Assembly: GCA_017454485.1 (NCBI GenBank)
Contig: JAFTCX010000007.1
Coordinates: 1 to 64,000, forward strand
Origin: Clostridia bacterium
Lineage (GTDB): Bacteria; Bacillota; Clostridia; Oscillospirales; Acutalibacteraceae
Direction of reading: 5' to 3'
DNA: 64,000 bases
Shown: positions 15,716 to 64,000 of the stretch, piece by piece
Layout of the letters: each line of letters opens with the position of its first letter
Position numbering within the stretch: position 1 is the first letter of the stretch
Translations under genes and position numbers: made by a program
Notes under the pieces: model-generated
Told to the model about the DNA's origin: nothing
Seen by the model: the letters and a program-made list of their open reading frames with translations, nothing else
The model's database searches: none

Positions 15716-18052
15716 TCAATAGTGTGCTTCGCCGCATTCGCAGTACTGGTGGATGTGGAACAAACGATAGAAGAACCGTACGATCGGCCAGATGAGTTTG
15801 AGGATCGGGTTGCTCGTGTTGTGGCACATGTGGGTGCACGGCTCAATTTTAATGCCGTAGCCGCAATCGTCGCAGACCTTGTATTCATGCTGGGTAAAGA
15901 CCGCGTTGTCCGTGAGCATCTTCTTTGTGAAATGGTGATCCGCCATCGTATACTGGCCGCAGGCACAATAGGCGCGGTGCTGCTTGTCGTTCCCGTTGAC
16001 GAGCGTATAGCGCAGCGTGAAATCGTGCGCGTGCGACGTGTCTCTTGCAACGCGGACGGTCAGATCGCTCTTGATCTTCGTGATGCGGAACGCGCCCGCC
16101 ATGCCGGTATCGTCAAAGCCCTTGATGTTTTTATAGCTGCCTTCGGTCACCGTCACGCTGAACACGTCGGCGGGGTTGGATGACTTGATGATGAAATTGA
16201 CCTGGCCGCCGTCCTTGGTGGGAAGTCCCGTATCCGCATCGATGGAAACGGTGGACATCGTTTCGGTCGGCTCCACATAAAGGTCCTGACCCGGGAACAC
16301 CAGCACGCGCAGACCGCTTTCGCAATCAAAGTTGACCTTGTAGCCCTCCGGGGCTTCCACAACCTTGTTCAAACGCACCATCACATCCAGATCGGCTTTG
16401 ACGCCGGTCAGCCGGTAGTTGCCGTCGCCGAGCTCCTCCAGCGCGGTGTAGCCGTTTGCCGGAGCAGCCGCCAGCTCCACCGTGGTCTTTTTCTTCGCGT
16501 CCACATGGAAGGTCACACTGCCGCCGTTTTTGGTCAGCGCACCGCTCTCATCCACACTGTAGGCCGCTTCTGCACGGTCAGCAGTTCCGGAAACGTCGGG
16601 CGTCGGATAGGCGGACACCTTTGCGCCGTCGCGGCACAAAAAGGCCACACGGTAGGCGTCGGCGCCTTTTTCATGGATATTCACGCCGAAATATGCGTCC
16701 AAATCGGCCACGTGCGCTCTGGCAAAATCCATGATGCGCGCATAGGTGTTCTCGCTGCGGCTCGGCGCGTCGGGCCAGCGATTCGCTTCCGCCTGATAGA
16801 TGAGATCGGGAATCGTCGCTTTGAACGCGTTGAACTGCCGCTCAATGTTGGAAAGCGAAAGCACATCCTGCCGCAGCTCGACATAGCGCGCCTTCATTTC
16901 GGCAAAGTAGTTGTCCAGCAGCTTTTTATAAAGGTTGTTGCGCGCTTCGGGGCGATAGACCTTTGTGGCGGAAATCGGCTCAAACTCGCCGTTCCATTTC
17001 ATGCCCCAGGTGCCGTCCATATCGTAGGCGGAGGGGATGAACTTTGTGCCGTCATAGGTCAGCCAGAGAATGTTCTTGGCGTGGTTGTCGTCCGCGCGGA
17101 TGAAATACATATACAGCATGTAGTCGATGCAGCGGTCCACATCGGTATACTGCCCGATCGTGTCGCGCAGCGCCTGCCCGTCGTGCGTGAGCAGGTAGGT
17201 GATGAAGTTGTTGAACGCTTCGCCGAGCCATGCGGTGCCCTCTTCGGTGTCCTCTGTGGAGCAGTATTCCAGATCAAAGCCGTTCTCTTCGGATTCCAGA
17301 TCGCTCGGGTCCTGCATCGGCTCCCAAAGAGAGGTCGGGTTGGTGTACCAATCGGCGCCGAGCACAGCCTGGTGCACCGTTTCGTCATCCATGTCAAAGA
17401 TCCAGTGATCCTTCGGCATATTGAAGGTATACAGACCGAGAAAATCGCCGTTGTGATACAGCAGGATCGGGAATCCGTCGATCGCGCCGCCGTTGAGCAG
17501 CGGGTCCACTTCGTCGTCGATGCCGCGGGAGTGCACAATTTCACCGAACAGACGCGCGGAAACGATGTTGCGCGCCTGGGTGGTATCGACCCAGTTGGCC
17601 TTCAGGCAGTATTTGCTCTGGCGGCCCCAGTCACGGTGGATGAGAACCTTGTTTTTCGCGCCGCTCTCCTGCACAAACTGCAAGGAGTAGTTCTTCTTTG
17701 CGTAGCGAATGGAGGTGAAGCCCTGAATCTTCAGCGTGGCAAAGCTGTCAAACGAAAGGTTCGCAGAGCTGTAGCTCGTTTTGACCAGCACCTTCGTGTC
17801 CTTGGAGATGCCGTCGAGCGAGCCTTCGATGTTCATGATGGGCATGCCGACATCCTTGTAGGTGACGGGCGCCTGATAGGTTTGGCCGCAGGAGGTGCAG
17901 CGGAACACGCCGCAGAATTTTGTGGAGAGCCCGGACTCCGTGCGCAGCGACTGCAGCACGCCCTCGTGCTCATGCGCGCCAAAGGCGCCGGTCAGCGGAC
18001 AGACAGAAAGCAGCATCAGCAGTGCAAGAAACAGGCAGAGTGTCTTTTTCAT
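15716..18052 (-). CDS. Secreted CotH-kinase-like protein with Cys/His modules
   Basis: 778 residues from the ATG at 18052 (GGAAGGAG upstream). A signal peptide (KKTLCLFLALLMLLSVCPL) is followed by a Cys/His segment with CTSCGQ, then the CotH-like domain at about residues 70-440. That domain contains NYSLQF, LKANWVD, FMNxPKDHW-like and IPSAYDMDGTWG segments. CotH proteins are atypical kinases or structural proteins; here it is exported. Two repeats of about 80 residues (Y-K-V-N-F-D-C-E-S-G-like) follow, then Cys/His modules. The C-terminus has a hydrophobic helix (WPIVRFFYRLF) followed by CECGEAHY, a reversed order of the shared tail signature. Confidence 0.82.
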   Translation of the reverse strand: MKKTLCLFLALLMLLSVCPLTGAFGAHEHEGVLQSLRTESGLSTKFCGVFRCTSCGQTYQAPVTYKDVGMPIMNIEGSLDGISKDTKVLVKTSYSSANLSFDSFATLKIQGFTSIRYAKKNYSLQFVQESGAKNKVLIHRDWGRQSKYCLKANWVDTTQARNIVSARLFGEIVHSRGIDDEVDPLLNGGAIDGFPILLYHNGDFLGLYTFNMPKDHWIFDMDDETVHQAVLGADWYTNPTSLWEPMQDPSDLESEENGFDLEYCSTEDTEEGTAWLGEAFNNFITYLLTHDGQALRDTIGQYTDVDRCIDYMLYMYFIRADDNHAKNILWLTYDGTKFIPSAYDMDGTWGMKWNGEFEPISATKVYRPEARNNLYKKLLDNYFAEMKARYVELRQDVLSLSNIERQFNAFKATIPDLIYQAEANRWPDAPSRSENTYARIMDFARAHVADLDAYFGVNIHEKGADAYRVAFLCRDGAKVSAYPTPDVSGTADRAEAAYSVDESGALTKNGGSVTFHVDAKKKTTVELAAAPANGYTALEELGDGNYRLTGVKADLDVMVRLNKVVEAPEGYKVNFDCESGLRVLVFPGQDLYVEPTETMSTVSIDADTGLPTKDGGQVNFIIKSSNPADVFSVTVTEGSYKNIKGFDDTGMAGAFRITKIKSDLTVRVARDTSHAHDFTLRYTLVNGNDKQHRAYCACGQYTMADHHFTKKMLTDNAVFTQHEYKVCDDCGYGIKIEPCTHMCHNTSNPILKLIWPIVRFFYRLFHIHQYCECGEAHY

Positions 18053-18185
18053 GGGATAATCTCCTTCCTTTTGTGGCATATTTACTCTTTTAAAGTATAA
18101 CACACCTTTTTCGTGCTTTCAATGAACGTATCCACCAAAAATAATTTGAAAAATTATGGAAGTTGATGGATATGCGCTTCGCCGC

Positions 18186-18214
18186 TTGCATCCGATCGCC
18201 GGATTTGCTATAAT
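18186..18214 (+). promoter_or_regulatory. Promoter of the GH25 gene
   Basis: TTGCAT (18186-18191), 17-base spacer, TATAAT (18209-18214), about 37 bases before the start codon. Confidence 0.7.
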
Positions 18215-18251
18215 GCAGACATCACCATAAAAAAAGCAAGGAGGTATTTCT

Positions 18252-19286
18252 ATGAAAAAAGCATTGCGTGTCCTGTCTCTTCTTTTGGGTGTGCTGATGC
18301 TGCTTTCCGCCGTGCCGGTCTTTGCGGCGGATGCGCCGCCGTATTGCGGCATCGACGTCTCCCGCTGGCAGGGAACCATGGACTGGCAAAAGACGAAGGC
18401 GGCCGGTGTGGATTTTGCGGTTTTGCGCTGTTTTGCAAAAGCCAAGGACACGACCTTTGATACCAACTATGCCGGCGCGGCTGCACAAAGCATTCCCGTT
18501 GGCGCGTATGTGTATATGTATGCAACCACAGCACAAGCTGCCGCCGCGGAAGCGCAAAACGCCGTTGCGGCGCTCGCCGGACGCGCACTGACACTGCCGC
18601 TGTTTCTCGATGTGGAAGACAGCAAGGTGCTCGCGCTCGACAAAGCAACGCTCTGTGCACTGGTGCTGACGGAGCTGCAGATCTTTGAAAACGCAGGCTA
18701 CAAAGCAGGCATTTACACCTCGCAAAGTCAGGCGAAGCATTACAACACCCCGGCGCTGTCGGGCTATGCAAGGTGGATTGCAAAATGGTCGTGCTACACC
18801 ACGGACGCGAACCCGAAAAAATTCACCTTTGCCGACCAGAGCCCGAATCATAACGCCCCGGCGTGCGATCTCTGGCAGTTTTCCAACGGCGGCAACGGCA
18901 GCGTCTACGGCGCAGCGTCCGCCTATATCGATCTCGACTACTGCTACACCGATTACCTGAACGCGGCGCAGCCCACAGACCCGCCGACCCATGTGCACAC
19001 CTTTGCCGCACCGCAGGTGATCGCACCCTCCTGCACCGAAGACGGGCTGCTTGTGCAAACCTGCGCGACCTGCGGCGAAACCGTTACAACGCCCGATGCT
19101 CCTGCGCTCGGCCACACCGCACCGGATGAAAACGGCTGCTGCACAAGATGCGGCGTGATGATAGAAAGTGTGGATCTTCCGCAGTCCCCTGCGCCCGGCG
19201 TCTGCCCGCTTTGCGGCGAACAGCACACCGGACTGTTCGGCATTTTTCTGCTGATTTTGCACACGATTCTCGCTTTGTTCCGCTGA
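18252..19286 (+). CDS. Secreted GH25 lysozyme-like muramidase with C-terminal tail signature
   Basis: 344 residues. Signal peptide KKALRVLSLLLGVLMLLSAV, then a GH25 domain (about 30-235) with GIDVSRWQG at the start and FLDVED carrying the acidic pair expected for catalysis. ARWIAKW and LWQFSNGG are also typical. GH25 enzymes cut the MurNAc-GlcNAc bond. The domain is followed by a Cys/His module (CATCGE, CTRCG). The protein ends with CPLCGEQHTGLFG and a hydrophobic helix (FLLILHTILALFR) that runs to the stop. The tail suggests retention at the cell surface. Confidence 0.9.
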   Translation: MKKALRVLSLLLGVLMLLSAVPVFAADAPPYCGIDVSRWQGTMDWQKTKAAGVDFAVLRCFAKAKDTTFDTNYAGAAAQSIPVGAYVYMYATTAQAAAAEAQNAVAALAGRALTLPLFLDVEDSKVLALDKATLCALVLTELQIFENAGYKAGIYTSQSQAKHYNTPALSGYARWIAKWSCYTTDANPKKFTFADQSPNHNAPACDLWQFSNGGNGSVYGAASAYIDLDYCYTDYLNAAQPTDPPTHVHTFAAPQVIAPSCTEDGLLVQTCATCGETVTTPDAPALGHTAPDENGCCTRCGVMIESVDLPQSPAPGVCPLCGEQHTGLFGIFLLILHTILALFR

Positions 19287-19336
19287 TTTATCAGCAGCTT
19301 ACACAAAAAGAACCTCACTTTTTCGGCAGGTTGCGC

Positions 19337-19411: not shown

Positions 19412-20641
19412 ATGAAAAAAGTGTTATCCGTTCTCCTCAGCGTTCTGATGCTGTTCTCCGCTGCAACCGCCGCATTTGCAGCCAGAGAACTCGCGCCGAT
19501 GATTAAGGTGGACGAGGCGACCGGTCAGCAGACGCTGAAATTCCGCGCTGACGGCAAGTTCAAGATCATGCAGATCAACGACACGCAGGACACCGATACC
19601 ATGCACAAGCGCACGGAAGAATTCATCCGCGCCGCGGTCGCCGCTGAAAAGCCCGACCTCGTCGTGATCCCCGGTGACGTCTGCAACGATATTTTCATCG
19701 GCGCAAACACAAAGCGCGTCAAGCAGTCTTTGCGCAACCTCGGTTCCCTTCTGAGCGAGCTGAAGGTCCCGTTCGCTTACACCCCGGGCAACCATGACCA
19801 CGACAAGGACGAGATGGTCTCTCCCGCAGAGCAGATGGCTGTCTTTGAAGAGTTCGCCTATAACATCCACAACATCAGCACCCCGGACGATCCGGGCTCC
19901 TATAACATCCCCATCATGAGCAGCGACGGCAGCCGCATGGCGCTGAACGTTTACATGATCGACTCGCAGAACAAAGACGGCCTTGCCAACGGCTACACCG
20001 GCTGCAAGCCCGAAACGACTGCCTGGTATGTTGAAAAGAGCAATGAGCTCAAAGAGCTCAACGGCGGCGAAGTGGTTCCCTCTGTGGTCTATCAGCACGT
20101 CCCCGTCAAGGAGATCTATCAATGCCTGCAGCAGGTTGACAAAAAGGAAGCCAACAACGCCATCTGGAGTCTGAACGACTATAAGTGGTATAAGGAAGTT
20201 GAAGAAAAAATGTACGTCGATGAGACGCGCATGATCAAGAAGGACAACTACATCGGTGAAGCCCCCTGCTCCGAAGTGTTCGACACCAAATCCGGCGAAT
20301 ATGAAGCTTGGGTACAGCAGGGCGATGTGATGGGCGCGTTCTTTGCACACGACCATGTCAACCACTTCATGATGCAGACCGACGACGGCATCATCATGGG
20401 TTACAACGGCGGCACCGGCTTTGCAGCATACGGCCGCGGCAGCCACCGCTCCATCCGCATTTATGAGTTCGATGAAAATGATGTGCAGAACTTCACGATC
20501 AACTCGGTGTACTACGATGAGCTCACCGGTCACAACTTCAAGTTCTATCCCTCCGACATCATGTCCACCGCAATCTTCGGCGATGTGATCCGTTTCTTCC
20601 TGCGTCTGGTGTTCATCACCCCGTGGAAGGGCAGCAGATAA
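19412..20641 (+). CDS. Secreted calcineurin-like metallophosphoesterase
   Basis: 409 residues. A signal peptide (KKVLSVLLSVLMLFSAATAA) is followed by a metallophosphoesterase domain. Metal-ligand motifs are visible in order: FKIMQINDTQDTD (replacing the usual D-x-H), IPGDVCND (GD-x-x) and TPGNHDHD (GNHD). A late AHDHVNHF (GH-x-H type) and the YNGGTGF region follow. The family resembles the purple-acid-phosphatase-like extracellular esterases of Firmicutes; the substrate is unknown. The C-terminus (FGDVIRFFLRLVF) is a short amphipathic helix like those ending other exported proteins here, but without the CxxCG knuckle. AAGGAG precedes the ATG. Confidence 0.85.
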   Translation: MKKVLSVLLSVLMLFSAATAAFAARELAPMIKVDEATGQQTLKFRADGKFKIMQINDTQDTDTMHKRTEEFIRAAVAAEKPDLVVIPGDVCNDIFIGANTKRVKQSLRNLGSLLSELKVPFAYTPGNHDHDKDEMVSPAEQMAVFEEFAYNIHNISTPDDPGSYNIPIMSSDGSRMALNVYMIDSQNKDGLANGYTGCKPETTAWYVEKSNELKELNGGEVVPSVVYQHVPVKEIYQCLQQVDKKEANNAIWSLNDYKWYKEVEEKMYVDETRMIKKDNYIGEAPCSEVFDTKSGEYEAWVQQGDVMGAFFAHDHVNHFMMQTDDGIIMGYNGGTGFAAYGRGSHRSIRIYEFDENDVQNFTINSVYYDELTGHNFKFYPSDIMSTAIFGDVIRFFLRLVFITPWKGSR

Positions 20642-21556: not shown

Positions 21557-21561
21557 AAAAA

Positions 21562-25917: not shown

Positions 25918-27516
25918 CTACCGGTGATCGAAGAAACGCTTGAGCCATAGTTTCAGCGCTTCCCAAAACGCCTGCAGGGCCGTGCGCCGGTCGGGGTGGG
26001 TGTATTCCGTATGCATATTTTCGGCGGTCATCGGGTCCCAGTGCTCCACATCGTTCTCCCAGAAATAGGTCATGAACTGCGGAAAATCGGGATCATCGTT
26101 CACCGTAAGCTGCCGGTCGGCGCGGGTCATGCGCAAAACAAGCTCGTAGATACGGCCGGGAAAATCATTGTGGCGAATGTTCTTGACAAACCATGTCGTC
26201 TCCGGGAACCACGCCGTTGAAGCGTCAATCAGGCGGTCGGGCGAAATGCTGCTGCCGAAGCCCGCACGTTTGCGCGCGGCAATATAACGGGAACTGAGCG
26301 TTTCGCCGTAAGCAGCGCCGGTTGCGCCGAAGGACTGCGCTGTCAGGGTGATCTTATCGTCCGACTGCTCCTGCACGGAAGAGGTGAAGGGGATGATCTG
26401 GAAGCCGTATTTTGCAAGGAAGCACAGCTTCACGCCGTCGTTTTTCATCCGGGTCAGCAGTTCCCGCATCGGCCGGCGCACGCGCAGATCATATGCGTCG
26501 ATTTTTTCAATCAGCTTCGCGTATTTGGCGGCGTCGTTTTTGAACAAAAAGGCTTTTGCGTCTGCAAAATCCTGCGGCGCAACCATGCTCCAGTAACCGG
26601 CGGAGGTGGCAAAGCTCGCCTTCAGCACGCGCGGCAGAACATCGTCCCACAGGCGTTTCAGCAGCAGATCACAAAGCTTTGACGGCAGCCCGAGCGCGCC
26701 GAGCTGCTGCCCGAGCTCCAGCGCGGTAAACAGCAGCGCCTTGGTTTCCGGGTCAACGGTTCCGTCGTCTTCCGGCGGCGCATCCGGATCGTCATAGCGG
26801 TGCTTTTCGTCCAAAAAGTTATTGATGCCCGCAAGGTCGATTTTCACTTTTCCGGAAAACAGCTCGCTGAAAATCGTTGTACCCAGCGCGGCGGAGCTGT
26901 AGGTGAAAAAGGTGTCAATGTCCTGCCAGCCGTATTTTTCAAAATATGTCAGCGCCATCTCGCTGCCCATACAACGGCTGAGAACGGTGACTCTGCGGTG
27001 CCCGGTTACGCGCCGCACACATTCAATGTAAGCGTGCAGGTCGTCCGCAATCTCAAACGGGTCCTTGCGCGCGTCGTAGATATAGACGTAGGAATACACG
27101 TTGTCATACCTGTGATCGTCGCGCATCGTTTCCGGCGACCAGGTCCATTCCACGCCGGACGCGTTGTCCGGCAGACTGCCGTCGTCCTTGCAGGCAAAGT
27201 CCCGATATTTTTCTTCGAACGCCGCTGCAATCTCGTTGCAAAACGTGTCGAAGCTTCCGCGCAGCAGCTTTGCGGCGTTGCGCCTGACGCTTTCGCTCAA
27301 GAGCTTTTTGAGCCAATCAACGTCATAGCCGCTGATGACCTTGCGGTTTTCTGCGCGCGGATCGTCAAAAATATCCTGCCGCCCGTAGATGTAGATCAGC
27401 GGCGTATGCTCGCAATCGCAAACATTTTCGTCCGCCGGCGCCGCAGCCGCCGTCAGTGCGCCGCAGCAGGAAAGCAGCATCAGCAAAGCAAGAAACGCCG
27501 AAACCATTCGCTTCAT
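25918..27516 (-). CDS. Secreted alpha/beta-hydrolase-like protein with Cys at the nucleophile elbow
   Basis: 532 residues from the ATG at 27516 (GAGGGGG upstream). Signal peptide KRMVSAFLALLMLLSCCGAL. The region 38-210 resembles a lipase fold: PLIYIYGR is a possible oxyanion strand, and VTVLSRCMGSEMAL (177-190) is a nucleophile elbow in which C182 occupies the position of the usual Ser. Dienelactone hydrolases also use Cys there. Acid and His residues could not be assigned. The C-terminus ends FWEALKLWLKRFFDHR, an amphipathic aromatic helix like the tails of other exported proteins here. Activity is uncertain, and the fold call is moderate. Confidence 0.6.
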   Translation of the reverse strand: MKRMVSAFLALLMLLSCCGALTAAAAPADENVCDCEHTPLIYIYGRQDIFDDPRAENRKVISGYDVDWLKKLLSESVRRNAAKLLRGSFDTFCNEIAAAFEEKYRDFACKDDGSLPDNASGVEWTWSPETMRDDHRYDNVYSYVYIYDARKDPFEIADDLHAYIECVRRVTGHRRVTVLSRCMGSEMALTYFEKYGWQDIDTFFTYSSAALGTTIFSELFSGKVKIDLAGINNFLDEKHRYDDPDAPPEDDGTVDPETKALLFTALELGQQLGALGLPSKLCDLLLKRLWDDVLPRVLKASFATSAGYWSMVAPQDFADAKAFLFKNDAAKYAKLIEKIDAYDLRVRRPMRELLTRMKNDGVKLCFLAKYGFQIIPFTSSVQEQSDDKITLTAQSFGATGAAYGETLSSRYIAARKRAGFGSSISPDRLIDASTAWFPETTWFVKNIRHNDFPGRIYELVLRMTRADRQLTVNDDPDFPQFMTYFWENDVEHWDPMTAENMHTEYTHPDRRTALQAFWEALKLWLKRFFDHR

Positions 27517-27657
27517 ACAAAATCCCCCTCTGAAAAAATCGGATGTCTTCATTGTATCGAAGGCATCCGGAAAAATCAAGCATGTTTCTGTTTTGTTACA
27601 AATCGTTTACACAACCGCCAAACGCAGAACAAAGCGCCGGCAATTTTTTGCGCACGC

Positions 27658-30966: not shown

Positions 30967-33900
30967 TTATTTTGCGCCAAACAGAGCAAAGAGGATGCGG
31001 TGGAAAATTTGAACGAGCCAGCCGAACGCGCCGGCGTGGGTCTGTCCGCAATAGGGGCAGCCGCCGCTTTTCTCTTCCCGCAGCCGTTCGCCGCAAAGAT
31101 CGCACACGCCGTCGTCGTTGCTGTCGGTGTGCGGCGCTTTGGAAAGAATGCGCTCCTCTGCCGCGCCGCAGACACTGCACACGGCGCGGGAGATGCCGTT
31201 GTCGCTGCAGCTCGCGGACTTCACAAGCGTTGCCGCACCCCAGTTGTGCGCGGCGGTCTGCGTTTCCTTGCAGCGCGTACAGGTGCGGATATGGTTTTCC
31301 CCGTTGTTTGTCCAATCACCGTAGCTGTGACCGAGCGGCGCAATTTCTTTGCCTGCTTCGATCACGGCTTCGCAGCCGTTGCAAACCGTGTCGCCCGTAT
31401 AGCCGACGGTGGTGCAGCCCGCGTCCGCTGCGTTCACCAGATGCGTACCGCAGTCGGCATGGTTGGTCGGATCTTTCGCCGTCGGTTCGGTTTTTGCCGC
31501 AACGCAAACGGAACAGGTGTATTTCACGCTGCCCTCCGTCGCGCATGTTGCCGCGCGGACGGTTTCATCCGCCTTCCAGTTGTGCCCGGCGGTCTGCGTT
31601 TCCTTGCAGCGCGTACAAGTACGAATGTGGGTTTCGCCATTGTCCGCCCAATCGTCGAAATTGTGTCCCAACGACGAAATCTCACTGCCTGCTTCGATCA
31701 CGGCACCGCAACCGTCACAAACCTTGTCGCCGGTATAGCCGACGGTGGTACAGCCAGCGTCCGCTTGATTCACTAAGTGCGTACCGTAGTCGGCATGGTT
31801 CGTCGGATTTTTCGCTGTCGGTTCGGTTTTTGCCGCATCGCAAACGGAACAGGTGTATTTCACGCTGCCCTCCGTCGCGCATGTTGCCGCGCGGACGGTT
31901 TCGCCCGCCTTCCAGTTGTGCCCGGCGGTCTGCGTTTCCTTGCAGCGCGTACAGGTGCGGATATGGGTTTCGCCGTTGTTTGTCCAGCCGCCGAAGCTGT
32001 GCCCGAGCGCTTTGATCTCGTTACCCGTTTCCAACACTGCACCGCAGCCGTCACAGACCTTGTCGCCGCTATAGCCTGCGGTGGTGCAGCCAGCGTCCGC
32101 TGCGTTCACCAGATGCGTACCGTAGTCGGCATGGTTGGTCGGATCTTTCGCCGTCGGTTCGGTTTTTGCCGCACCGCAAACGGAACAGGTGTATTTCACG
32201 CTGCCCTCCGTCGCGCATGTTGCCGCGCGGACGGTTTCGCCCGCCTTCCAGTTGTGCCCGGCGGTCTGCGTTTCCTTGCAGCGGGTGCAAGTGCGGATAT
32301 GGTCGTCGCCATTGTCCGCCCAGTCGTCGAAATTGTGTCCAAGCGGCGCGATGTCCTTGCCCGCTTCGATTACCGCACCGCAACCGTCACAAACCTTGTC
32401 GCCGGTATAGCCGACGGTGGTACAGCCAGCATCGGCTGCGTTTGCTATGTGCGTGCCATAGTCGCCATGATTCGTCGGGTCAAGGTCAGTGTCCACAGTT
32501 TTCGTTGCGACACACAGCGTGCACTTATATTTCACTTTTCCCGGCGCGGTGCAGGTCGCTACAGAAATCGTCGTGCCGTTGTCCCACGTATGCGCTGCAT
32601 ATTCCTCTTCGCCGCAGCGGTCGCAAGTGCGGATATGGTTGTCGCCATTGTCCGCCCAGTCGTCGAAATTGTGTCCAAGCGGCGCGATGTCCTTGCCCGC
32701 TTCGATTACCGCACCGCAGCCGTCACAAACCTTGTCGCCGGTATAGCCTGCCGTCAAGCAACCAGCGTCCGCTTGATTCACCAGATGCGTACCGTAGTCG
32801 CCATGGTTCGTCGGGTCGGGTGCTGTGTCCTCTGTTTTCGTCGCAATACACTGCGTACACTTATACTTTATTTGTCCCGGCGCGGTACAAGTCGCTACAG
32901 AAATCGCCGTGCCGTCGTTCCATGTATGCGCTGCATATTCCTCTTCGCCGCAGCGGTCGCAAGTGCGGATATGGTCGTCGCCGTTGTCCGCCCAGTCGTC
33001 GAAATTGTGCCCCAGCGGCGCAATGTCCTCGCCTGCTTCAATCACTGCGCCGCAGCCGTCACAGACCTTGTCGCCGGTATAGCCGACAGTGGTGCAGCCA
33101 GCGTCCGCTGCGTTCACAAGATGCGTGCCATAGTCGCCATGGTTCGTCGGGTCAAGGTCAGTGTCCACAGTTTTCGTTGCGATACACTGCGTGCACTTAT
33201 ACTTTATCTGCCCTGACGTTGTGCAGGTCGCCGCGGTGATCGCCGTGCCGTTGTCCCACGTATGCGCTGCATATTCTTCCTCGCCACACCGGTCGCAGGT
33301 GCGGATATGGTCGTCGCCGTTGTCCGCCCAGTCGTCGAAATTGTGCCCCAGCGGCGCAATGTCCTTGCCCGCTTCGATCACGGCACCGCAGCCGTCACAA
33401 ACCTTGTCGCCGCTATAGCCTGTCGTCAAGCAACCAGCGTCCGCTACGTTCACAAGATGCGTACCGTAATCGCCATGGTTCGTCGGGTCGAGGTCAGTGT
33501 CCTCTGTTTTCGTTGCGATACACAGCGTGCACTTATACTTTATCTGTCCCGGCGTTGTGCAGGTCGCTACAGAAATCGCCGTGCCGCTGTCCCACGTATG
33601 CTCTGCATATTCTTCCTTGCCGCAGCGGTCGCAGGTGCGGATATGGTCGTCGCCGTTGTCCGCCCAGTCGTCGAAATTGTGTCCCAGCGGCGCAATGTCA
33701 CTGCCTGCTTCGATCACGGCATCGCAACCGTCACAGACCTTGTCACCGGTGTACCCAACGGTGGTGCATCCAGCGTCGGCTTTATTCACCAGATGCGTAC
33801 CGTAGTCGGCGTGGTTGGTCGGGTCGGGTGCTGTGTCCTCTGTTTTTGCCGCGCCGCAAACGGAACAGGTCACCTGCCTGCTGCCTGATTCTGTACAGGT

Positions 33901-35460
33901 TGCGCGGGTCAGATTCTTATATAGATCCCATGTGTGCGCCTGCGTGATCCGGTGCGTCGGGTCATTGGCGCAGATGCGCGCGTGGGTGTCGGCGTCCATG
34001 CTTGTCCATGCGCCATAGGCGTGCCCCAGCGCAGAAAACACCTGCGTTTGGGTCAGCGGACAGGTCGCACAGCCAAGCACGGTTTCGCCGGGCGCTTCAC
34101 AGCTCGCCGGGGTCTGCCGCACGGTCACACTGAGCGCATGCACCTGCAGCGGCAGAGCGTGTTCTTCGCAGTATTCCGCCTCGGCGGAATCCGCAAACGC
34201 GTGAACGGTCACGCCCTCCGGCGACGCGGACGGCTGCGCCTGATCTTCCGCAAGGCAACTCAGCCGGTCAAAACCGTCAAAATCCGTGATCTCTTCCCCG
34301 GTGATTTCGGACAGCCGCGCAAACAGCGCGTCCTCCTCCAGCAGCAGCGCATCGCATTCCTGCCACTGCCGCAGCGCGTAATAAAGCGCCTGCAGCGTCG
34401 GCGCGTCATAGCCTTCGGCCGGTTCAAAACGCAAAAAGCCGGACGCCGCGCTCACCGCTGTTTTGCTTGCGGTGCAAAGGTCCGTGAGCGCATACAGGTG
34501 CGCCAGCGCGTCGGGTTCGATTTCCATCAGCGACGCCGGCAAAAGAAGCTGCCGGAGCTTGCCGTTATCGGGAAAAGCGCTGCGCGCGATCGTTTGTACC
34601 CCTTCCGGCACAGCGTAAAGCGTTTCTGTTCGTGCGGGCGGATAAAAGCGCAGGCACGTCTGCGCCTTGTTGAACAGCACACCGTCAAGCGTGGAAAACT
34701 GCGCGTTTTCTTCGTTGACCGTGATCGTCTGCAGCGCACCGTAACGCGGCAGCGCCGTTTCAGAAATCGTTGTCAGACCGCTGCCCAGCGAAAGGGTCTG
34801 CAGATCAAAACAGCTATCCAGCGCGTGCGGACCGATTTCCGTCACCGCGTCGGGAATCACCAGTTCCGTGAGATGAAAGCAGCCCTGCAGGGCGTCTTCG
34901 CCCAGCGATTGCAGCTTTGCGGGCAAGGAAAGCGTGCGCAGAAAAGCAGCACAATCAAACGCACGCGGCGCGATGGAGGTTACCGTTTCCGGCAGCGTAT
35001 AGCTTTCCGCCCTTCTGCCGCCGGGATACTGCAGCAGCCTTGTCTGCGCCTTGTCAAACAGAGCGCCGGCCGCATCGACGGAAAAGCAGGCGTTTTCCGC
35101 CGCCACTTGAATGTCGGTCAGCGCACGGCAGCCTGTCAATGCAAAGGCGTCGATTTTGGTTACACTTGCGGGAATCTGCAGCGTTTCGAGCGCCGTGCAA
35201 TCAGAAAACGCGCCCGTGCATATGCTTTCCACACCCGGCTCCAGCACCACGCGCAGGATCTGATCGGCCGCATCCGCCCACGGGTTTTCCGTCATCTCGC
35301 CGCTGCCGAACACGCGCAGCGTCCCGTCCTGCGTCAGCGACCATTGCAGCGCCGGACCGCAAGCGCCGCTGTCTGTTTCCGTTCCAAAAACAAACGGCAC
35401 CGACAGAAAAACCATCAGTACCGAAAGCAGAACGGAAGCCAAGGGTTTGAAACATTTCAT
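30967..35460 (-). CDS. Giant BspA-like surface protein with eight Cys/His-rich tandem repeats
   Basis: 1497 residues. A signal peptide (PLASVLLSVLMVFLSVPFVF) is followed by LRR_5 repeats to about residue 340 and an intermediate region to about 480. Eight tandem units of 112 residues follow, each with NH(A/G)DYGTHLVN, ADAGC, TGDKVCDGCGAVIEAG, LGHNFDDW, HIRTC(D/T)RC and one CxxC core. They fall into two subtypes, EEYAxHTW and KETQTAGHNW. The repeated Cys and His pairs suggest metal-binding ribbons or disulfide knots. The protein ends CPYCGQTHAGAFG plus a hydrophobic helix (WLVQIFHRILFALFGAK). Probably a surface adhesin. It lies 26 bases after mgtC on the same strand. Confidence 0.9.
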   Translation of the reverse strand: MKCFKPLASVLLSVLMVFLSVPFVFGTETDSGACGPALQWSLTQDGTLRVFGSGEMTENPWADAADQILRVVLEPGVESICTGAFSDCTALETLQIPASVTKIDAFALTGCRALTDIQVAAENACFSVDAAGALFDKAQTRLLQYPGGRRAESYTLPETVTSIAPRAFDCAAFLRTLSLPAKLQSLGEDALQGCFHLTELVIPDAVTEIGPHALDSCFDLQTLSLGSGLTTISETALPRYGALQTITVNEENAQFSTLDGVLFNKAQTCLRFYPPARTETLYAVPEGVQTIARSAFPDNGKLRQLLLPASLMEIEPDALAHLYALTDLCTASKTAVSAASGFLRFEPAEGYDAPTLQALYYALRQWQECDALLLEEDALFARLSEITGEEITDFDGFDRLSCLAEDQAQPSASPEGVTVHAFADSAEAEYCEEHALPLQVHALSVTVRQTPASCEAPGETVLGCATCPLTQTQVFSALGHAYGAWTSMDADTHARICANDPTHRITQAHTWDLYKNLTRATCTESGSRQVTCSVCGAAKTEDTAPDPTNHADYGTHLVNKADAGCTTVGYTGDKVCDGCDAVIEAGSDIAPLGHNFDDWADNGDDHIRTCDRCGKEEYAEHTWDSGTAISVATCTTPGQIKYKCTLCIATKTEDTDLDPTNHGDYGTHLVNVADAGCLTTGYSGDKVCDGCGAVIEAGKDIAPLGHNFDDWADNGDDHIRTCDRCGEEEYAAHTWDNGTAITAATCTTSGQIKYKCTQCIATKTVDTDLDPTNHGDYGTHLVNAADAGCTTVGYTGDKVCDGCGAVIEAGEDIAPLGHNFDDWADNGDDHIRTCDRCGEEEYAAHTWNDGTAISVATCTAPGQIKYKCTQCIATKTEDTAPDPTNHGDYGTHLVNQADAGCLTAGYTGDKVCDGCGAVIEAGKDIAPLGHNFDDWADNGDNHIRTCDRCGEEEYAAHTWDNGTTISVATCTAPGKVKYKCTLCVATKTVDTDLDPTNHGDYGTHIANAADAGCTTVGYTGDKVCDGCGAVIEAGKDIAPLGHNFDDWADNGDDHIRTCTRCKETQTAGHNWKAGETVRAATCATEGSVKYTCSVCGAAKTEPTAKDPTNHADYGTHLVNAADAGCTTAGYSGDKVCDGCGAVLETGNEIKALGHSFGGWTNNGETHIRTCTRCKETQTAGHNWKAGETVRAATCATEGSVKYTCSVCDAAKTEPTAKNPTNHADYGTHLVNQADAGCTTVGYTGDKVCDGCGAVIEAGSEISSLGHNFDDWADNGETHIRTCTRCKETQTAGHNWKADETVRAATCATEGSVKYTCSVCVAAKTEPTAKDPTNHADCGTHLVNAADAGCTTVGYTGDTVCNGCEAVIEAGKEIAPLGHSYGDWTNNGENHIRTCTRCKETQTAAHNWGAATLVKSASCSDNGISRAVCSVCGAAEERILSKAPHTDSNDDGVCDLCGERLREEKSGGCPYCGQTHAGAFGWLVQIFHRILFALFGAK
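31215..33890. repeat. Eight 336-bp tandem repeats inside the surface protein gene
   Basis: The units are in frame, exactly 336 bp in period, and highly similar at the DNA level, including at silent sites. This indicates recent expansion or homogenisation. Copy number is therefore likely to vary between strains or be mis-assembled from short reads. They are far too long and spacer-free to be CRISPR. Confidence 0.9.
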
Positions 35461-41720: not shown

Positions 41721-41744
41721 CGTCCAGATAAAGGAGTGTTCCCA

Positions 41745-44758: not shown

Positions 44759-45784
44759 ATGAAACTGACAAAAAAACTGCTGGCTGTTTTGCTCGCGGCG
44801 CTGATGATCGTCACCGTGATCCCGTTTGCGTTTGCGGCCACTTTCACCGGCACGCTGGACAACGGCGTTCTGACCGTTTCCGGCTCCGGCGCCATGGGCA
44901 GCTTTTCCGAAGGCACGCCCTGGGCGCAGTTTGCCAATGATACGACCTCGATCGTGATCTCCGACGGCATCACCTCGGTCGGCGCCTATGCGTTCAAAAA
45001 CTTCAAAAGAGTTACGAGCGTGTCCCTGCCCGCCAGCGTGAAAGACATTGACGCCTATGCGTTTTTGAACTGCGCGGCGCTGCAGAGCATTGCCCTGCCC
45101 GCCACAATGACCGCCATCAAAACCGGCACATTCAGCGGCTGCACATCCCTCAAGGGCGTCACCATCCCCGAAAACGTGGCGGAAATTCAGAGCTACGCGT
45201 TCAACCACACCGGTCTGACAGAGATCCTGCTGCCGGCGTCTGTGACAAGCGTTGCAAAATATGCGTTCACGAACTGCGAGGCGCTCAAGAAGATCACGAT
45301 CAAAAACAACAAGTGCTCGATCGTGAACGGTGCGTTCCCGCCGCCGACCGCCTCCACCTCCGGTGAAGCACCGATCACCATTTATGCAACTTACAGATCC
45401 AACGGCTACAACTTCGCCGTTGCCAACCAGTATGCCTATGAAGTGATCCCCGACGAGGACAAGCCGAACTACGGCACCCCGGATACTGTGCAGGAAGTGG
45501 TCACCGTTTCCGAACAGACCCTCAAGGAAACCAAATTCGGCGCCTTCATCCGCCGTCTGCTTGAACTGCTCGGCATCGAAAAGAAAGAGCAGGCGCCCGA
45601 AACGGAAAACGGCACCGGCAGCGGTTCCGGCTCCGGCGGCGCTGAAAGCGAAAATAACAGCACCATGACCATCACCGGTCCCGGCGCGGAAATCGGCAAA
45701 TTCCTGATGAAAACGTCGTTCGCAGACGTCATCCTGTCACTGCGCGAGGCGCTGCAAGGTTTGCTTCCCTCCCTCAAATTCTGA
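44759..45784 (+). CDS. Secreted LRR_5 (BspA-like) protein
   Basis: 341 residues from the ATG at 44759, after AGAAAGGAG; the longer upstream frame lacks a ribosome site. Signal peptide KLTKKLLAVLLAALMIVTVI. A short beta domain (DNGVLTVSGSGAMG), also present in other LRR proteins here, precedes about five LRR_5 repeats (100-215). A Gly/Ser/Glu linker follows. The C-terminus ADVILSLREALQGLLPSLKF is a short amphipathic helix running to the stop, without the CxxCG knuckle. Likely a surface or secreted binding protein. Confidence 0.85.
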   Translation: MKLTKKLLAVLLAALMIVTVIPFAFAATFTGTLDNGVLTVSGSGAMGSFSEGTPWAQFANDTTSIVISDGITSVGAYAFKNFKRVTSVSLPASVKDIDAYAFLNCAALQSIALPATMTAIKTGTFSGCTSLKGVTIPENVAEIQSYAFNHTGLTEILLPASVTSVAKYAFTNCEALKKITIKNNKCSIVNGAFPPPTASTSGEAPITIYATYRSNGYNFAVANQYAYEVIPDEDKPNYGTPDTVQEVVTVSEQTLKETKFGAFIRRLLELLGIEKKEQAPETENGTGSGSGSGGAESENNSTMTITGPGAEIGKFLMKTSFADVILSLREALQGLLPSLKF

Positions 45785-53189: not shown

Positions 53190-54596
53190 TTATTTATGCA
53201 GTCCGAACAGCGCTAAAATGTCATGGAAAAGCTGAATGAAAAAGCCGAACAGTCCGTCATGGGTCTGGCCGCAATACTTGCAGCTGCCGCGCTGCGGCTC
53301 CACTTCCTGCGGCTCAAACGGCTGGGGTTCCTCCGGCTGGGGTTCCTCAGGGTGGGGTTCCTCCGGCTGAGGTTCCTCCGGCTGGGGCAGCTTTTCCGTT
53401 GTGATATTCGCCAGCTCTTCGGTTCCGTTCTCGTCTGCGTAATTCTTCCCGCAGGAAATGCAGTGATAATGCGCCACGGTGCCTTCCGCTTCGACCGTTG
53501 CTTTTTGCTCCGGAACATAGGTCAGACTGTGCACGATGATCCCCTCATCCACAAACGTGCGATAAGTACGGTTTGCATTCAACCGATCTTCATTGACCAG
53601 CAGTCGGATGAATGCGCCGCTTCCGGTCGTGGGGCCGTCATAGAGCGTATTGTCCGTATCATCTCTGAAGTCCATGCGCATATTCGTTACAGTGGCGTTG
53701 AAGTTGCTGTTGCCGACTTTGAAGCCGGTGCAGTTGCCGCCCTCACCGCTCCACCAGAACGCGGTACAGTTGTCATAGATGCTGCGGCCGCTTCCGGTGA
53801 TCTTGAATGCAGTCTGGAACTGATCGCTGTAACAGTGGGTGAAAAGGTTGTTGGTGCTCTCCTCAACAAAACCGCAGGAACCCTTATACTGATTCCAGCT
53901 GATGTTGAACAGCGGATGAATGTTGGTCAGACTGTTGCCGTTGGAATGGACGATCACACCCGTGCGCACGCCGGCAATGCGGGCGTTGGTAACAGTGTTG
54001 TCATGTCCCTCGATCTTGATTCCGACGGAGTTTGCCGTGCCGGCTCCAAAGATGTTGATGTCTCTGATATCCGCGTCGGAAGAACCGGAGTTTGCGCCGT
54101 ACTTGATATGCAGACCCACAATGGTGTTTTTGATGGACGTGTTCTGCACCTTGGTTTCCCGGCCGGAATCAATGCTCACGCCGTTTGCGACCTTATTTCC
54201 GTCAATAACGCCGCCGGTCAGGGAGTAGTTGCTGCCGACCTTTTTTATCGTATTGTAAGGATCTTTTCCGCCCAGCGCGATCAGCGCGCCGCCTGTGAAT
54301 CCGCTGGTTGCGCGAATGACCGCATAGTTTGTCAACTGCAGATCAACGCTTTTGGCGGGATCGGCAGGCGTGCGCAGCGGATGGGAGAGCAGATAGACGC
54401 CGTCGGGGAAATAAATGGTGCGGTTAGGGTTTGCGTCGATGACGGCCTGCAGCGCGTCCGCAACGTCTTTGCCGGTATCTGCGGCAACATAGTCCGTGAC
54501 ACAAACGGTCCCGGGCATTGCAAAAGCAACCGTGCACGTCGGCACGATCATGGTAAGGACCAGAAGCACAGAGAGGATCGTTTTCAGCTTTGACAT
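53190..54596 (-). CDS. Secreted right-handed beta-helix (pectate-lyase-3-like) protein with C-terminal tail signature
   Basis: 468 residues from the ATG at 54596. A signal peptide (KLKTILSVLLVLTMIVPTCT) is followed by a parallel beta-helix domain (about 40-360). Its start, VADALQAVIDANPNRTIYFPDGVYLL, matches pectate-lyase-3 type proteins, and coils with N-x-I/V turns follow. A Cys/His module (CISCGK) and a PEEPQ proline-glutamate linker precede the end: CKYCGQTHDGLFG plus FFIQLFHDILALFGLHK. This is the cleanest copy of the shared surface tail. Catalytic residues could not be assigned, so it may be a phage-tailspike-like or glycan-binding protein. Confidence 0.85.
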   Translation of the reverse strand: MSKLKTILSVLLVLTMIVPTCTVAFAMPGTVCVTDYVAADTGKDVADALQAVIDANPNRTIYFPDGVYLLSHPLRTPADPAKSVDLQLTNYAVIRATSGFTGGALIALGGKDPYNTIKKVGSNYSLTGGVIDGNKVANGVSIDSGRETKVQNTSIKNTIVGLHIKYGANSGSSDADIRDINIFGAGTANSVGIKIEGHDNTVTNARIAGVRTGVIVHSNGNSLTNIHPLFNISWNQYKGSCGFVEESTNNLFTHCYSDQFQTAFKITGSGRSIYDNCTAFWWSGEGGNCTGFKVGNSNFNATVTNMRMDFRDDTDNTLYDGPTTGSGAFIRLLVNEDRLNANRTYRTFVDEGIIVHSLTYVPEQKATVEAEGTVAHYHCISCGKNYADENGTEELANITTEKLPQPEEPQPEEPHPEEPQPEEPQPFEPQEVEPQRGSCKYCGQTHDGLFGFFIQLFHDILALFGLHK

Positions 54597-54657
54597 GGAG
54601 ATCATCCTTTCTTTTTTCTCAAAAACATTATAGCGCAACGGGCAAAAATGTCAACAA

Positions 54658-57607: not shown

Positions 57608-59644
57608 TTATCTTTTTGCTTTTGCGTGCTTTGTCAGCGAGTAGGCGCCGAAGATATTCGTGCCGTTTACCGTTGACACAGCGCGCACTTTGAAATAATA
57701 GGTGCGTCCGGCGGTGTAGTTGGTCGTGATCAGCGTCGTTTTGGAAAATGTGCCGATCTTCTTGAACTCGCCGTTCTTGGCTGTGGAATAATAAACCACA
57801 TATTTTTTCGCGCCGTCGGCCTTGTTCCAGCTCAGCGCAAATCTGCGGCCGGCCTGCGCCTTGGCCTTGAGGTTCGTCACACGGGCGGGAACGACCTTGA
57901 ATTTCAGCGTCTTCGTGCCGGCGTAATGGCCCTTGAAGGTCACTGTCACGGTATAAATGCCAACCGTCTTGCGGCCGGAGCTGTATTTCAGCGTGTAATC
58001 GGTATTCTTCTTGAGCTTTTTGTTGTTGGCGTCCTTCACCGTCACCGTCGGCTTTTTCGCGCTGCCGTCATAGACGAACTCCGTGGCGGAAAGCTTAACG
58101 GAATTGATCTTGGCAACCGATTCGGTCTTTTTGGCGTTGCAGTAGGTACAGGTGGAAACGACCTTGCCGTTTTTGCCGATTTTTGCGGCGGTTACTTTTT
58201 CCTTCCAGTTGTGGCCGGTCTTCGGCAAAATGGCCTGCGGGGTAAAGACAAAGCCGCAGATCGAGCAGCTTTCGCCCTCGGTCAGACCGGTCGCTTGGCA
58301 GGTGGCCGGCGTTGCGGGCACCGTAACGGGATTGTGATCGGTGAGCGGGATGGTCTCCTCCTTTGTTTCACCGCAGACAGAGCAGGTGTAAACGCGAAGA
58401 CCGGTCGCAAGACAGGTCGCCTCGCGGACAACGGTCGAGGTTGCCCAAACATGGTCGTGCTCCGGAATGTCGGGCATGACTTCAAACGTACGGTCGAATT
58501 TTTTGGCAAACGCCTGCAGCGTGGAGCCCTCATAGCCGCGCAAAACGGTGGAACGCGGGAACTCGCGGCCCTGATCTTCCACCGATTCCTTCTTGTCGTC
58601 GTCCATCGGGATGTCGCAGTTCCCGTTGAACACGGACACGCGCTGGAGCTGCGTGCAGCCGTAAAACGTGAACGAGCCGATCTTGGTCACACTGCGCGGA
58701 ATGGAGACCTCGCGCAGCTTGACGCAGTTGTGGAACGCGCCGCTGTTGATTTCGGTAACGGTGTTCGGAATGGTGATCTCCGTCAGACCGTGGCACATCT
58801 GGAACAGATAATAGTCAATGACCTTCAGATCGGCCGGAAGCTTGACGTCGGAGAGATGGTTGCAGCCGGAAAACGCGCTCGCGCCGATGGTCTTCACCGA
58901 ATCCGGGATCCGCATCTCTGTGAGCAGCTTGCAGCCGCAAAACGCATACCACGCGATGTCGCTCAGCCCTTCGGGCAGCGTCACGGCCTGCAGCGACGTG
59001 CAGCCGTTGAACGCCCAGCCGCCAATCGATTTCAGCGTTGCGGGGAGCGAAACGGTCTGCAGATTTGTGCAGCCGTTGAATGCGCGGTCGCCGATGCTTG
59101 TGACGCCGTTTTCGATCACGGCGCGCTTGATCGCCGTTTTCTGACCCGCCCAGGGCACCGCCCGGTCAAGCTGGAACGCGGTCATGTCGCCGCTGCCGGA
59201 AACGGTCAGCAGGCCCTCGTCGCTCAGAACCCACGTCAGCGTTTCACCGCAAGAGCCGCTTTTCGAACCCGTTGCAACGGGCGCCGGCGACACGGTCGTC
59301 GGCTGTGCGGCGTCTTCGGTCGCCACTGTCGTTTCGGGCTCTTTTGCCGCTTCGGTCGCCTTTGTTGTCTCGGCTTCCTTTGTCGCTTCGGTCGCCTTCG
59401 TTGTCTCGGCTTCCTTTGTCGCTTCCGTTGCCTTTGTCGCTTCGGTCGCGGATGTCGCTTCCGTGGCGGTTGTCGCTTCGGTCGCGCTCACGGTTGTCGC
59501 TTCGGTCACGGTCGGTGCGGCGGACTGCGCCTGCGACGTTGTTGTCACCTCGGCGGCCGGTTCTTCGGCAAACGCAAACGGCAAACCGGTCACAAGGATC
59601 AGGACCGTCAGCAAAAGTGCAATCCATTGTTGAGGTTTCTTCAT
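57608..59644 (-). CDS. Secreted LRR_5 surface protein with Thr/Glu-rich linker, Ig-like and FN3 domains
   Basis: 678 residues, start taken at the ATG at 59644; an ATG three codons earlier overlaps the ribosome site. A signal peptide (WIALLLTVLILVTGLPFAFA) is followed by an acidic mucin-like linker of repeated ATEATK/EAETTK words (about 35-125). A short domain, LRR_5 repeats (about 190-375), Cys/His modules (CSVCGE, CSICGF, CTYCNA), an Ig-like domain and an FN3 follow. No CxxCG helix tail is present; the protein ends basic. The linker probably lifts the LRR domain from the wall and may be glycosylated. Confidence 0.88.
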   Translation of the reverse strand: MKKPQQWIALLLTVLILVTGLPFAFAEEPAAEVTTTSQAQSAAPTVTEATTVSATEATTATEATSATEATKATEATKEAETTKATEATKEAETTKATEAAKEPETTVATEDAAQPTTVSPAPVATGSKSGSCGETLTWVLSDEGLLTVSGSGDMTAFQLDRAVPWAGQKTAIKRAVIENGVTSIGDRAFNGCTNLQTVSLPATLKSIGGWAFNGCTSLQAVTLPEGLSDIAWYAFCGCKLLTEMRIPDSVKTIGASAFSGCNHLSDVKLPADLKVIDYYLFQMCHGLTEITIPNTVTEINSGAFHNCVKLREVSIPRSVTKIGSFTFYGCTQLQRVSVFNGNCDIPMDDDKKESVEDQGREFPRSTVLRGYEGSTLQAFAKKFDRTFEVMPDIPEHDHVWATSTVVREATCLATGLRVYTCSVCGETKEETIPLTDHNPVTVPATPATCQATGLTEGESCSICGFVFTPQAILPKTGHNWKEKVTAAKIGKNGKVVSTCTYCNAKKTESVAKINSVKLSATEFVYDGSAKKPTVTVKDANNKKLKKNTDYTLKYSSGRKTVGIYTVTVTFKGHYAGTKTLKFKVVPARVTNLKAKAQAGRRFALSWNKADGAKKYVVYYSTAKNGEFKKIGTFSKTTLITTNYTAGRTYYFKVRAVSTVNGTNIFGAYSLTKHAKAKR

Positions 59645-59803
59645 GTGAAACATCCTTTCCGATAGATTATCAAGGGTATATTATCACTCTTTACTTTAAC
59701 ATACTTAAAAGAAAATTGCAAGGTATTGCTTTGCTTTTTCATTTTTTCCAATACTTTTGGCTGCGCGAAAGTTGTTTTTCCCTGCGTTTTTCCTGTTTTT
59801 TCC

Positions 59804-61456: not shown

Positions 61457-61487
61457 ACTCTCACTCATCTCCACGGAGGCTAAACCG

Positions 61488-61802
61488 ATGACCGATTTTC
61501 TCAAAAAATTCCCGTTTCCCCTGCTGCTGGTGGTGATCTACATCTTCATCGGTGTGCTGACCCATGTCTGGCACCCGACGTGGATGCTGTTTTTGCTCAT
61601 CCCGGCCTATTACAGCTTTGTTGCTTTTCTGGATCACAGAAATGGCGGAAGCACAAGGGCGATTTTGCGCTATTTCCCCTTCCCGTCGATCGTGATTCTG
61701 CTGTATCTCGGCATGGGCTTCTTTTTGAATCTCTGGCATCCCGGCTGGCTGATCTTTTTGCTCATCCCGCTGTATTACGCCATGCTCCCGCTGTTTAAAT
61801 AA
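61488..61802 (+). CDS. Small membrane protein with internal duplication
   Basis: 104 residues from the ATG at 61488 (GGAGG upstream). Four membrane segments arise from a direct duplication: each half has (K/R)xFPFP, a helix, G-x-x-x-x-x-W-H-P-x-W and FLLIPxYY. The repeat (residues about 6-45 and 61-100) is well conserved, so the motif is likely functional. No family name is recognised; it may act in lipid or wall processes, but nothing proves this. It is co-directional with rarA, 14 bases upstream. Confidence 0.8.
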   Translation: MTDFLKKFPFPLLLVVIYIFIGVLTHVWHPTWMLFLLIPAYYSFVAFLDHRNGGSTRAILRYFPFPSIVILLYLGMGFFLNLWHPGWLIFLLIPLYYAMLPLFK

Positions 61803-61816
61803 GGAAGGGTGACTGC

Positions 61817-63085: not shown

Positions 63086-63110
63086 CAAAGCAATCAAAAA
63101 ATGATAAAGT
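63082..63110 (+). promoter_or_regulatory. Promoter of yebC, overlapping the end of rarA
   Basis: TTGACA (63082-63087) overlaps the TGA stop of rarA; TAAAGT (63105-63110) lies 17 bases on. Confidence 0.65.
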
Positions 63111-63143
63111 AAAAAGGTAAATTTCAGAAAGACAGGTGGCAAT

Positions 63144-63881: not shown

Positions 63882-63900
63882 AACAAAAATTGAAGTCAAA

Positions 63901-63932
63901 AAAACAAGGTGCGGTTGTGCACCTTGTTTTTG
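63901..63932. terminator. Bidirectional terminator after yebC
   Basis: AAAACAAGGTGC (63901-63912) pairs perfectly with GCACCTTGTTTT (63919-63930). It lies between convergent genes. Confidence 0.9.
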
Positions 63933-63942
63933 TGTTGTCTTG

Positions 63943-64000
63943 TTATTTGATTCCAAAGAAGCCCAGAATTCTTGCAATGAGGCTGCGGAACCAGTCGATG
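63943..64000 (-). CDS. C-terminal end of an exported protein with tail helix (truncated by window edge)
   Basis: The minus-strand frame open to the window end encodes IDWFRSLIARILGFFGIK and a stop. It matches the amphipathic helix that ends other exported proteins in the window (WFRSLIARILGFFG compared with FIQLFHDILALFG). The rest, including any CxxCG knuckle, lies beyond the window. Confidence 0.65.
   Translation of the reverse strand, partial: IDWFRSLIARILGFFGIK

Follow-up and report, generated by a model that had tools for sequence, protein, structure and literature searches.

Exported proteins with two kinds of short C-terminal tail

The window analysed here is the whole stretch of 64,000 nucleotides covering positions 1 to 64,000 of contig JAFTCX010000007.1 (assembly GCA_017454485.1), which belongs to the 2.4-Mb draft genome of a Clostridia bacterium of the family Acutalibacteraceae. 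Three of its genes, coding for a glycoside hydrolase family 25 (GH25) protein, a giant leucine-rich repeat (LRR) protein and a protein without a Pfam match, end in nearly the same short sequence, here called tail A (Table 1). An initial annotation, made from the letters alone, had described three near-identical tails on unlike bodies, and the coordinates and a Pfam scan bear this out: all three proteins have signal-peptide-like N-termini and differing bodies, and each tail runs to the stop codon. Signal-peptide calls throughout this work were made with a heuristic script, not with SignalP.

Tail A is composed of a Cys/His motif, CxxCGxxHxG (the knuckle), followed by a His-bearing helix and the stop; its consensus is CxYCGETHTGFFG and then the helix. 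The CotH-kinase protein of the window had been singled out for carrying helix and knuckle in reversed order. The reversed order is present but is no oddity, since this protein belongs to a second family of ends, tail B.

Table 1. Tailed proteins of the window and the positions of their tails.
Feature	Coordinates	Strand	Remarks
GH25 protein with tail A	18252..19286	+	signal-peptide-like N-terminus MKKALRVLSLLLGVLMLLSAVPVFA; Pfam Glyco_hydro_25 4.3e-24
Tail A of the GH25 protein	19203..19283	+	CPLCGEQHTGLFGIFLLILHTILALFR, then stop
Giant BspA-type LRR protein with tail A	30967..35460	-	Pfam LRR_5 7.1e-28
Tail A of the giant LRR protein	30970..31059	-	CPYCGQTHAGAFGWLVQIFHRILFALFGAK, then stop; profile E 1.5e-19
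Exported protein with tail A	53190..54638	-	no Pfam match; beta-helix in the initial annotation
Tail A of the 53190 protein	53193..53282	-	CKYCGQTHDGLFGFFIQLFHDILALFGLHK, then stop
CotH-kinase protein with tail B	15716..18103	-	Pfam CotH 7.8e-22
Tail B of the CotH protein	15719..15838	-	CTHMCH, amphipathic helix, CECGEAHY, then stop; profile A5 E 7.8e-19
Helix-only tail of metallophosphatase 19412-20641	20564..20638	+	mu 0.44, H 0.46
Helix-only tail of the 25918-27579 protein	25921..25986	-	polar (H 0.02), fails the F/W criterion
C-terminus of LRR protein 44759-45784	45713..45781	+	weaker helix-type end, outside the helix-only count
Helix-only tail of an exported protein	63943..64000	-	IDWFRSLIARILGFFGIK, then stop; protein extends past the window, whole gene L080

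Four further C-termini (at 19412, 25918, 44759 and 63943) had been listed as similar helices without the knuckle. All of them are present, and those at 19412 and 63943 alone pass the criterion for helix-only tails. None of these tails was found on four other exported-looking proteins of the window (10053-12470, 41736-43400, 47759-48928 and 57608-59653).

Architecture and occurrence of tails A and B

A profile built from the three window tails gave 32 rows in the same genome at E<=10, including 27 with E below 1e-3, which shows that the tail is not a chance resemblance. With a wider profile 30 tail A matches were obtained in this genome at E<=0.01. Thirty rows of the three-tail profile could be assigned to a locus; 28 of these reached the stop codon, the exceptions being L011 and L029. 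For all loci examined, 87 of 89 distinct copies lay within 17 residues of the stop, counting L046, whose contig ends before its stop; in stretches of genomes G008 and G030 that had been chosen around known matches, 27/27 copies lay at most 4 residues from it.

The carriers of tail A look exported. A signal-peptide-like N-terminus was found in 28/28 assessable carriers of the genome (29 distinct carriers, one of which starts at a contig end); for comparison, 95 of 330 called genes from a sample of this genome passed a comparable script. The initial annotation had held that frequent occurrence inside proteins, or on cytoplasmic ones, would speak against its view; nearly all copies proved to be C-terminal (87/89) and located on exported-looking proteins.

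The bodies that precede tail A include CHAP, papain-type and M6 peptidase, transglutaminase, C-type and ricin-type lectin, phosphoesterase, DUF6273, LRR and immunoglobulin-like domains, and several have no Pfam match. Many copies of the tails are preceded by long linkers rich in Pro, Thr and Gln. Six carriers of the same genome (L058-L063) have unlike N-terminal parts but a common Cys-repeat stretch of 100-150 residues (63-88% identity to L058), and they also share a PTNP linker next to the tail and tail A itself. The sharing of stretch, linker and tail suggests that this C-terminal cassette moves by recombination.

Some loci depart from the usual arrangement. In L011/L053 (L053 2887-4926; G000:C59:7150-7534) 62 residues follow tail A up to the end of the frame, near a contig end; loss of the stop with read-through into a tRNA was considered as the source of these residues and rejected, since ARAGORN finds no tRNA there. 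In G030:C3 the proteins that correspond to the LRR protein and the 53190 protein of the window (L178 and L179) have body and tail in separate frames, with tail frames of 239 aa and 44 aa, and so look broken or misassembled.

The CxxCxxxH start was present in 86 of the 89 distinct copies, equal to 83 unique tails, and 81/83 unique sequences have kept the mid-helix His at residues 19-21. The latter count is quoted in place of the invariant columns of alignment A3, which are invariant partly by choice because its rows were selected: A3 holds 54 rows from the 83 unique tails, near-copies and two tails without the helix His having been excluded. The earlier alignment A2 comprised 35 of 44 tails, with near-copies, L037 and L031 (CxCG instead of CxxCG) left out.

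Numbered from the helix His of tail A, small or polar residues occupy positions -10, -7, -3, 0, +1 and about +7/+8, and hydrophobic residues positions -9, -8, -5, -4, -2, -1, +2, +3 and +6. The polar stripe so formed is conserved, with Gly, Ala and His. The mean helical moment of 62 non-redundant tail A sequences was 0.411 against 0.218 for shuffled sequences (z 14.3), with a peak at 100 degrees; for 42 tail B sequences it was 0.580 against 0.246 (z 18.3). Both sets had been selected by patterns requiring Cys/His residues. The mean Kyte-Doolittle hydropathy of tail A over 19 residues was 1.30, and a fraction of 0.21 of the 62 sequences reached 1.6, the usual transmembrane mark. The helix part of tail A carries an average net charge of +2, and Phe plus Trp amount to 4.1 and 4.4 per 18 residues in the helices of the two tails.

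Tail B follows the pattern C-x-[C/H]-x-C-H, helix, C-x-C-G-x-x-H-[Y/W]. A two-row profile, built from the CotH protein and another protein of the same genome, matched in 17 of 21 genomes; most of the matches fell in genomes with few or no A tails, among them 23 in G021 and 16 in G006. All 24 B proteins inspected in these two genomes had a signal-peptide-like N-terminus and ended at most 12 residues from the tail. Among 43 non-redundant copies, all have Cys at position -4 and end in His-Tyr or His-Trp, a few with short extensions; at position -2, 22 copies have Cys and 21 have His, and the final aromatic residue is Tyr 37 times and Trp 6 times. Neither these two positions nor the last aromatic residue was required by the search pattern. 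Interchange of Cys and His at a fixed position has the look of a metal ligand, and the Cys/His pattern, together with this interchange at -2, points to a putative metal site.

Three of 64 B-like ends were off-pattern: in L226 and L314 the first half is missing, and the end of L354 is longer. The small exported protein found at L226 (4877-5953), L295, L296 and L314 has the helix and the final CxCGxxH without the CxxxCH before the helix; its tail is a half version of tail B.

Interchange, variant forms and distribution

Bodies of the same kind were found with either tail: 13 of 48 B-tailed bodies have an A-tailed homologue (at least 200 residues, at least 30% identity, E<=1e-30), five of these pairs involving LRR proteins, whose repeats may inflate the score. 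Three cases are clear. One is a DUF6273 protein that carries B in G021 (L299) and A in G030 (L180). L315 (G021, tail B) and L092 (tail A) share 42% identity over 454 residues and have no Pfam family; L330 (G031, tail B) and L090 (G004, tail A) share 38% over 470 residues, although their Pfam assignments differ and are weak.

Helix-only C-termini were enriched among exported proteins in the sample from the window's own genome: 13/55 lipobox-free exported proteins had one, against 5/235 proteins without signal peptide (p 4.6e-7). The corresponding counts were 3/29 against 1/102 in G008 and 2/17 against 0/53 in G030; for G031 and G021 they were 1/24 against 3/124.

The module also occurs near the N-terminus. 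The order in L029/L069 (G000:C49:24553-25659) is signal peptide, knuckle-helix module and phosphoesterase domain, and four homologues of L029, one each from G029 and G605 and two from G008, retain both Cys and both His. Ten loci were inspected for this version and the reading frame was obtained from seven. The phosphoesterases with an N-terminal module (L029/L069, L269, L270, L271 and L285) amount to five proteins in four genomes; a sixth homologue, L272 in G608, has a bare N-terminal helix.

Tail A was found in 17 of 34 genomes of the genus at E<=0.01: ten have 15-39 copies, seven have 1-2 and 17 have none. Nine genomes reached by peptide patterns all have 4-34 copies; two of them (G603 and G611) share coordinates with G028 and G030, so that the nine represent 7 further genomes. 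In an even draw from the order, 3/197 genomes matched, the window's own included. For the class the count was 6/391, again including the window's own genome, the other five having one weak match each among the best 20 candidates per genome; this search recovered 20 of the 30 tails of the window's own genome, which makes absence at that level softer than it appears.

Tail B was present in 34/34 genomes of the genus, with 1-22 copies, and in 0/390 other genomes of the class, among the best 19 candidates per genome. The two tails vary in opposite directions: the ten A-rich genomes have 1-3 copies of B, against 1-22 in the other 24 (Mann-Whitney p 3.8e-5, a value in which related genomes count as independent). 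Six A-bearing genomes reached through their loci had one copy of B in two cases and none in four, as judged with the weaker two-row profile.

A phage origin of the tails was considered and, within the phage and plasmid records searched, rejected: tail A had no match in phage records and tail B matched one, and no match to tail B was found among plasmids. The one record (PV036458.1, an Oscillospirales phage from human feces) has as its last gene L375 (71605-75312), coding for a 1235-aa protein with a signal-peptide-like start and tail B. The preceding gene is TetR-like, so that L375 may lie in host flank.

Proposed membrane anchoring, its alternatives and known systems

Neither tail matched a Pfam or NCBIfam model above cut-off or a PDB chain at E<=1. 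The best Pfam zinc family for tail A was Zn_ribbon_3, a sub-threshold match (E 0.39) over 6 residues. Nothing relevant on the motif or on such tails in these bacteria came up in the open-access literature, where motif notation varies and absence is therefore unproven; what did come up was the known work on PEP-CTERM and GlyGly-CTERM. Judged from the alignments, the four spaced Cys/His ligands of a predicted C2H2-type site are conserved in both tails.

The Eisenberg plot has a dividing line for the surface-seeking region. This region held 47 of 67 tail A helices and 37 of 39 tail B helices; the controls placed there were 6/514 C-termini of proteins without signal peptide, 3/33 of lipobox-flagged proteins and 2/135 signal-peptide cores, the windows for signal-peptide cores having been picked by hydropathy and the others by moment.

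We propose, with a probability of roughly 55%, that each tail folds into a small module which fixes the exported protein carrying it to the outside of the cytoplasmic membrane. The proposal is built on what was observed: the position of the tails, the signal-peptide-like N-termini that accompany them, their conserved Cys/His pattern, their amphipathicity and their interchange on homologous bodies. The reading that fits best by analogy is that of metal-capped anchors lying in the plane of the membrane and working like the tail of Escherichia coli PBP5. Once the protein has been exported by Sec and has lost its signal peptide, the Cys and His residues would bind a metal, probably zinc, and so pin a cationic, aromatic amphipathic helix at one end in tail A and at both in tail B. 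The helix would then lie in the outer leaflet, as does the C-terminal helix of PBP5, and the Pro/Thr/Gln-rich linkers would be long enough for an enzyme or a binding domain to extend into the wall. A and B would do one job in two ways, and within the genus each would largely have taken the place of the other. We infer that the modules bind both metal and membrane and depend on no partner enzyme.

Dockerins are small, plug-like modules repeated on many exported enzymes, and the tails could likewise be protein-protein modules whose knuckle and helix bind a surface receptor or scaffold that displays the proteins. This would suit the occurrence of one module per genome on many different bodies (30 matches in the window's own genome; GH25, CHAP, papain-type, M6, transglutaminase, lectin, LRR and DUF6273 proteins), the number of tails per genome, which is either high or very low within the genus, and the conserved polar stripe, whose Gly, Ala and His could form a binding face. 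However, a large aromatic non-polar face and a charge of about +2 (tail A) are typical of membrane helices, and A, B and helix-only ends interchange although they are alike in little beyond the helix. The dockerin model was also absent from the Pfam scans of the tails and of the scanned tailed proteins, and the sequence is unlike that of calcium-binding dockerin. We consider a receptor-binding role unlikely.

The initial annotation had left open an undescribed sorting or surface-retention signal and a membrane-docking tail. The data support an undescribed C-terminal module, and of the options docking fits best because of the helix amphipathicity, the Eisenberg position and the helix-only and N-terminal versions; the part that found no support is a signal read by a protease or ligase, sortase being the only partner searched for. 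Such a signal would be cut by an intramembrane protease or sortase-like enzyme, after which the mature end would receive a lipid or be linked to the surface, as happens with MYXO-CTERM and GlyGly-CTERM. This reading is favoured by a layout of short Cys motif, hydrophobic segment and, in most copies of tail A, basic end, by dozens of copies per genome, by signal peptides and by a patchy distribution; such features are described in excerpts of the papers on MYXO-CTERM (PMC11980579) and GlyGly-CTERM (PMC3237569). Nevertheless we regard cleavage as quite unlikely: the helix is amphipathic with a central His and rarely reaches transmembrane hydropathy, and B has a second knuckle after the helix, where MYXO-CTERM and GlyGly-CTERM end in a basic cluster. 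Helix-only tails and an N-terminal version of A that has been conserved speak against cleavage of a signal at the C-terminus, and a self-sufficient anchor accommodates the exchange of A and B, the bare helices and the N-terminal use better than a signal cut by an enzyme. Sortase (PF04203) was rejected as the partner: it is present in 24/24 genomes, rich or poor in tail A, and hence does not track the tail. A highly improbable alternative is that the tails are metal-sensing or scavenging ends, or redox handles, in which the helix packs against the knuckle inside a globular end; the Cys/His pattern is of the metal type, but ends with the bare helix are found on proteins of this same class, and the non-polar face would be far larger than a domain of 30 residues could bury.

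The absence of LPXTG and PEP-CTERM signals, noted in the initial annotation, was confirmed within the material covered. None of 221 signal-peptide-like proteins of the sampled stretches has an LPXTG-like motif with a hydrophobic stretch, and the sole check made for PEP-CTERM, an NCBIfam scan of 6 window proteins, gave no such model. Two adjacent sortase-family genes were seen at G000:C71:8635-9893, although the sampled exported proteins have no LPXTG-like end.

Several findings weigh against membrane anchoring by a metal-capped helix. Lys or Arg occurs within the last three residues of 48/62 tail A copies, which fits the layout of sorting signals (motif, hydrophobic segment, basic end), and 20/67 tail A helices fall outside the Eisenberg surface region. 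A PBP5-like helix functions without a metal cap. Lipoproteins would be expected to be free of tails, as were the lipobox-flagged proteins in the sample from the window's own genome (0/9 tailed); yet 2/8 lipobox-flagged proteins of G008 have tail A and 2/4 of G030 a helix-type end. In our judgement the two cases of G008 are false lipobox calls. The restriction of the tails to one lineage is odd for a purely physical anchor, and of all the findings it hints most strongly at a further factor in these cells.

Should the tails be membrane anchors, they would explain how a large group of gut and rumen clostridia whose sampled proteins have no LPXTG-like ends retains its hydrolases, adhesins and lectins, which number dozens, at the cell. 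A more tentative extension is that a single genus owns two permuted, metal-clamped membrane tags that displace each other genome-wide, with bodies swapping tags and the tag movable to the N-terminus, and that the surface proteome could pass from a membrane-held to a released state and back according to whether metal is bound. If this were true, a whole surface proteome would be held and released by a metal switch, which no known C-terminal tag does; metal dependence would also provide a directly testable way to hold or release surface proteins. The genus offers a natural experiment, in which wholesale gain or loss of tail A went together with a fall or rise of tail B, and annotators gain two short profiles that mark exported proteins.

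The closest known counterpart is E. coli PBP5 (DacA). An excerpt of PMC2909392 describes its C-terminal amphipathic helix as attaching the protein to the outer face of the cytoplasmic membrane, and septal localisation as lost when this helix is missing. PBP5 is likewise exported and has an amphipathic helix of about 18 residues at its extreme C-terminus, with a NFFGKII-like sequence and a moment of 0.50 at H 0.37. Unlike the tails, it has no Cys/His knuckle, it represents a single protein family and no permuted or N-terminal version of its helix is known.

MYXO-CTERM, in the excerpted part of PMC11980579, is a C-terminal tag with an invariant Cys and a hydrophobic helix, present in many copies per genome. 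The tails resemble it in combining Cys and helix at the C-terminus in many copies, but its helix is transmembrane, its end is Arg-rich and it is cleaved by a CPBP protease, whereas here the helix is amphipathic with a conserved His and tail B has a second knuckle. GlyGly-CTERM, as presented in an excerpt of PMC3237569, is a single C-terminal module that is sporadically distributed and sits on many exported proteins with unrelated bodies. This pattern of one module on many bodies is common to GlyGly-CTERM/rhombosortase, PEP-CTERM/exosortase, LPXTG/sortase and the tails, which differ from them in motif, helix type and partner.

With C2H2-type zinc knuckles and ribbons the tails share two Cys and two His at fixed spacing and, in B, the Cys/His interchange; unlike these, they are extracellular, carry a membrane-type helix and match no Pfam zinc family at cut-off. 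C-terminal amphipathic anchors and C-terminal tags are both known; as far as our searches reach, metal-clamped, permuted and interchangeable ones appear to be new.

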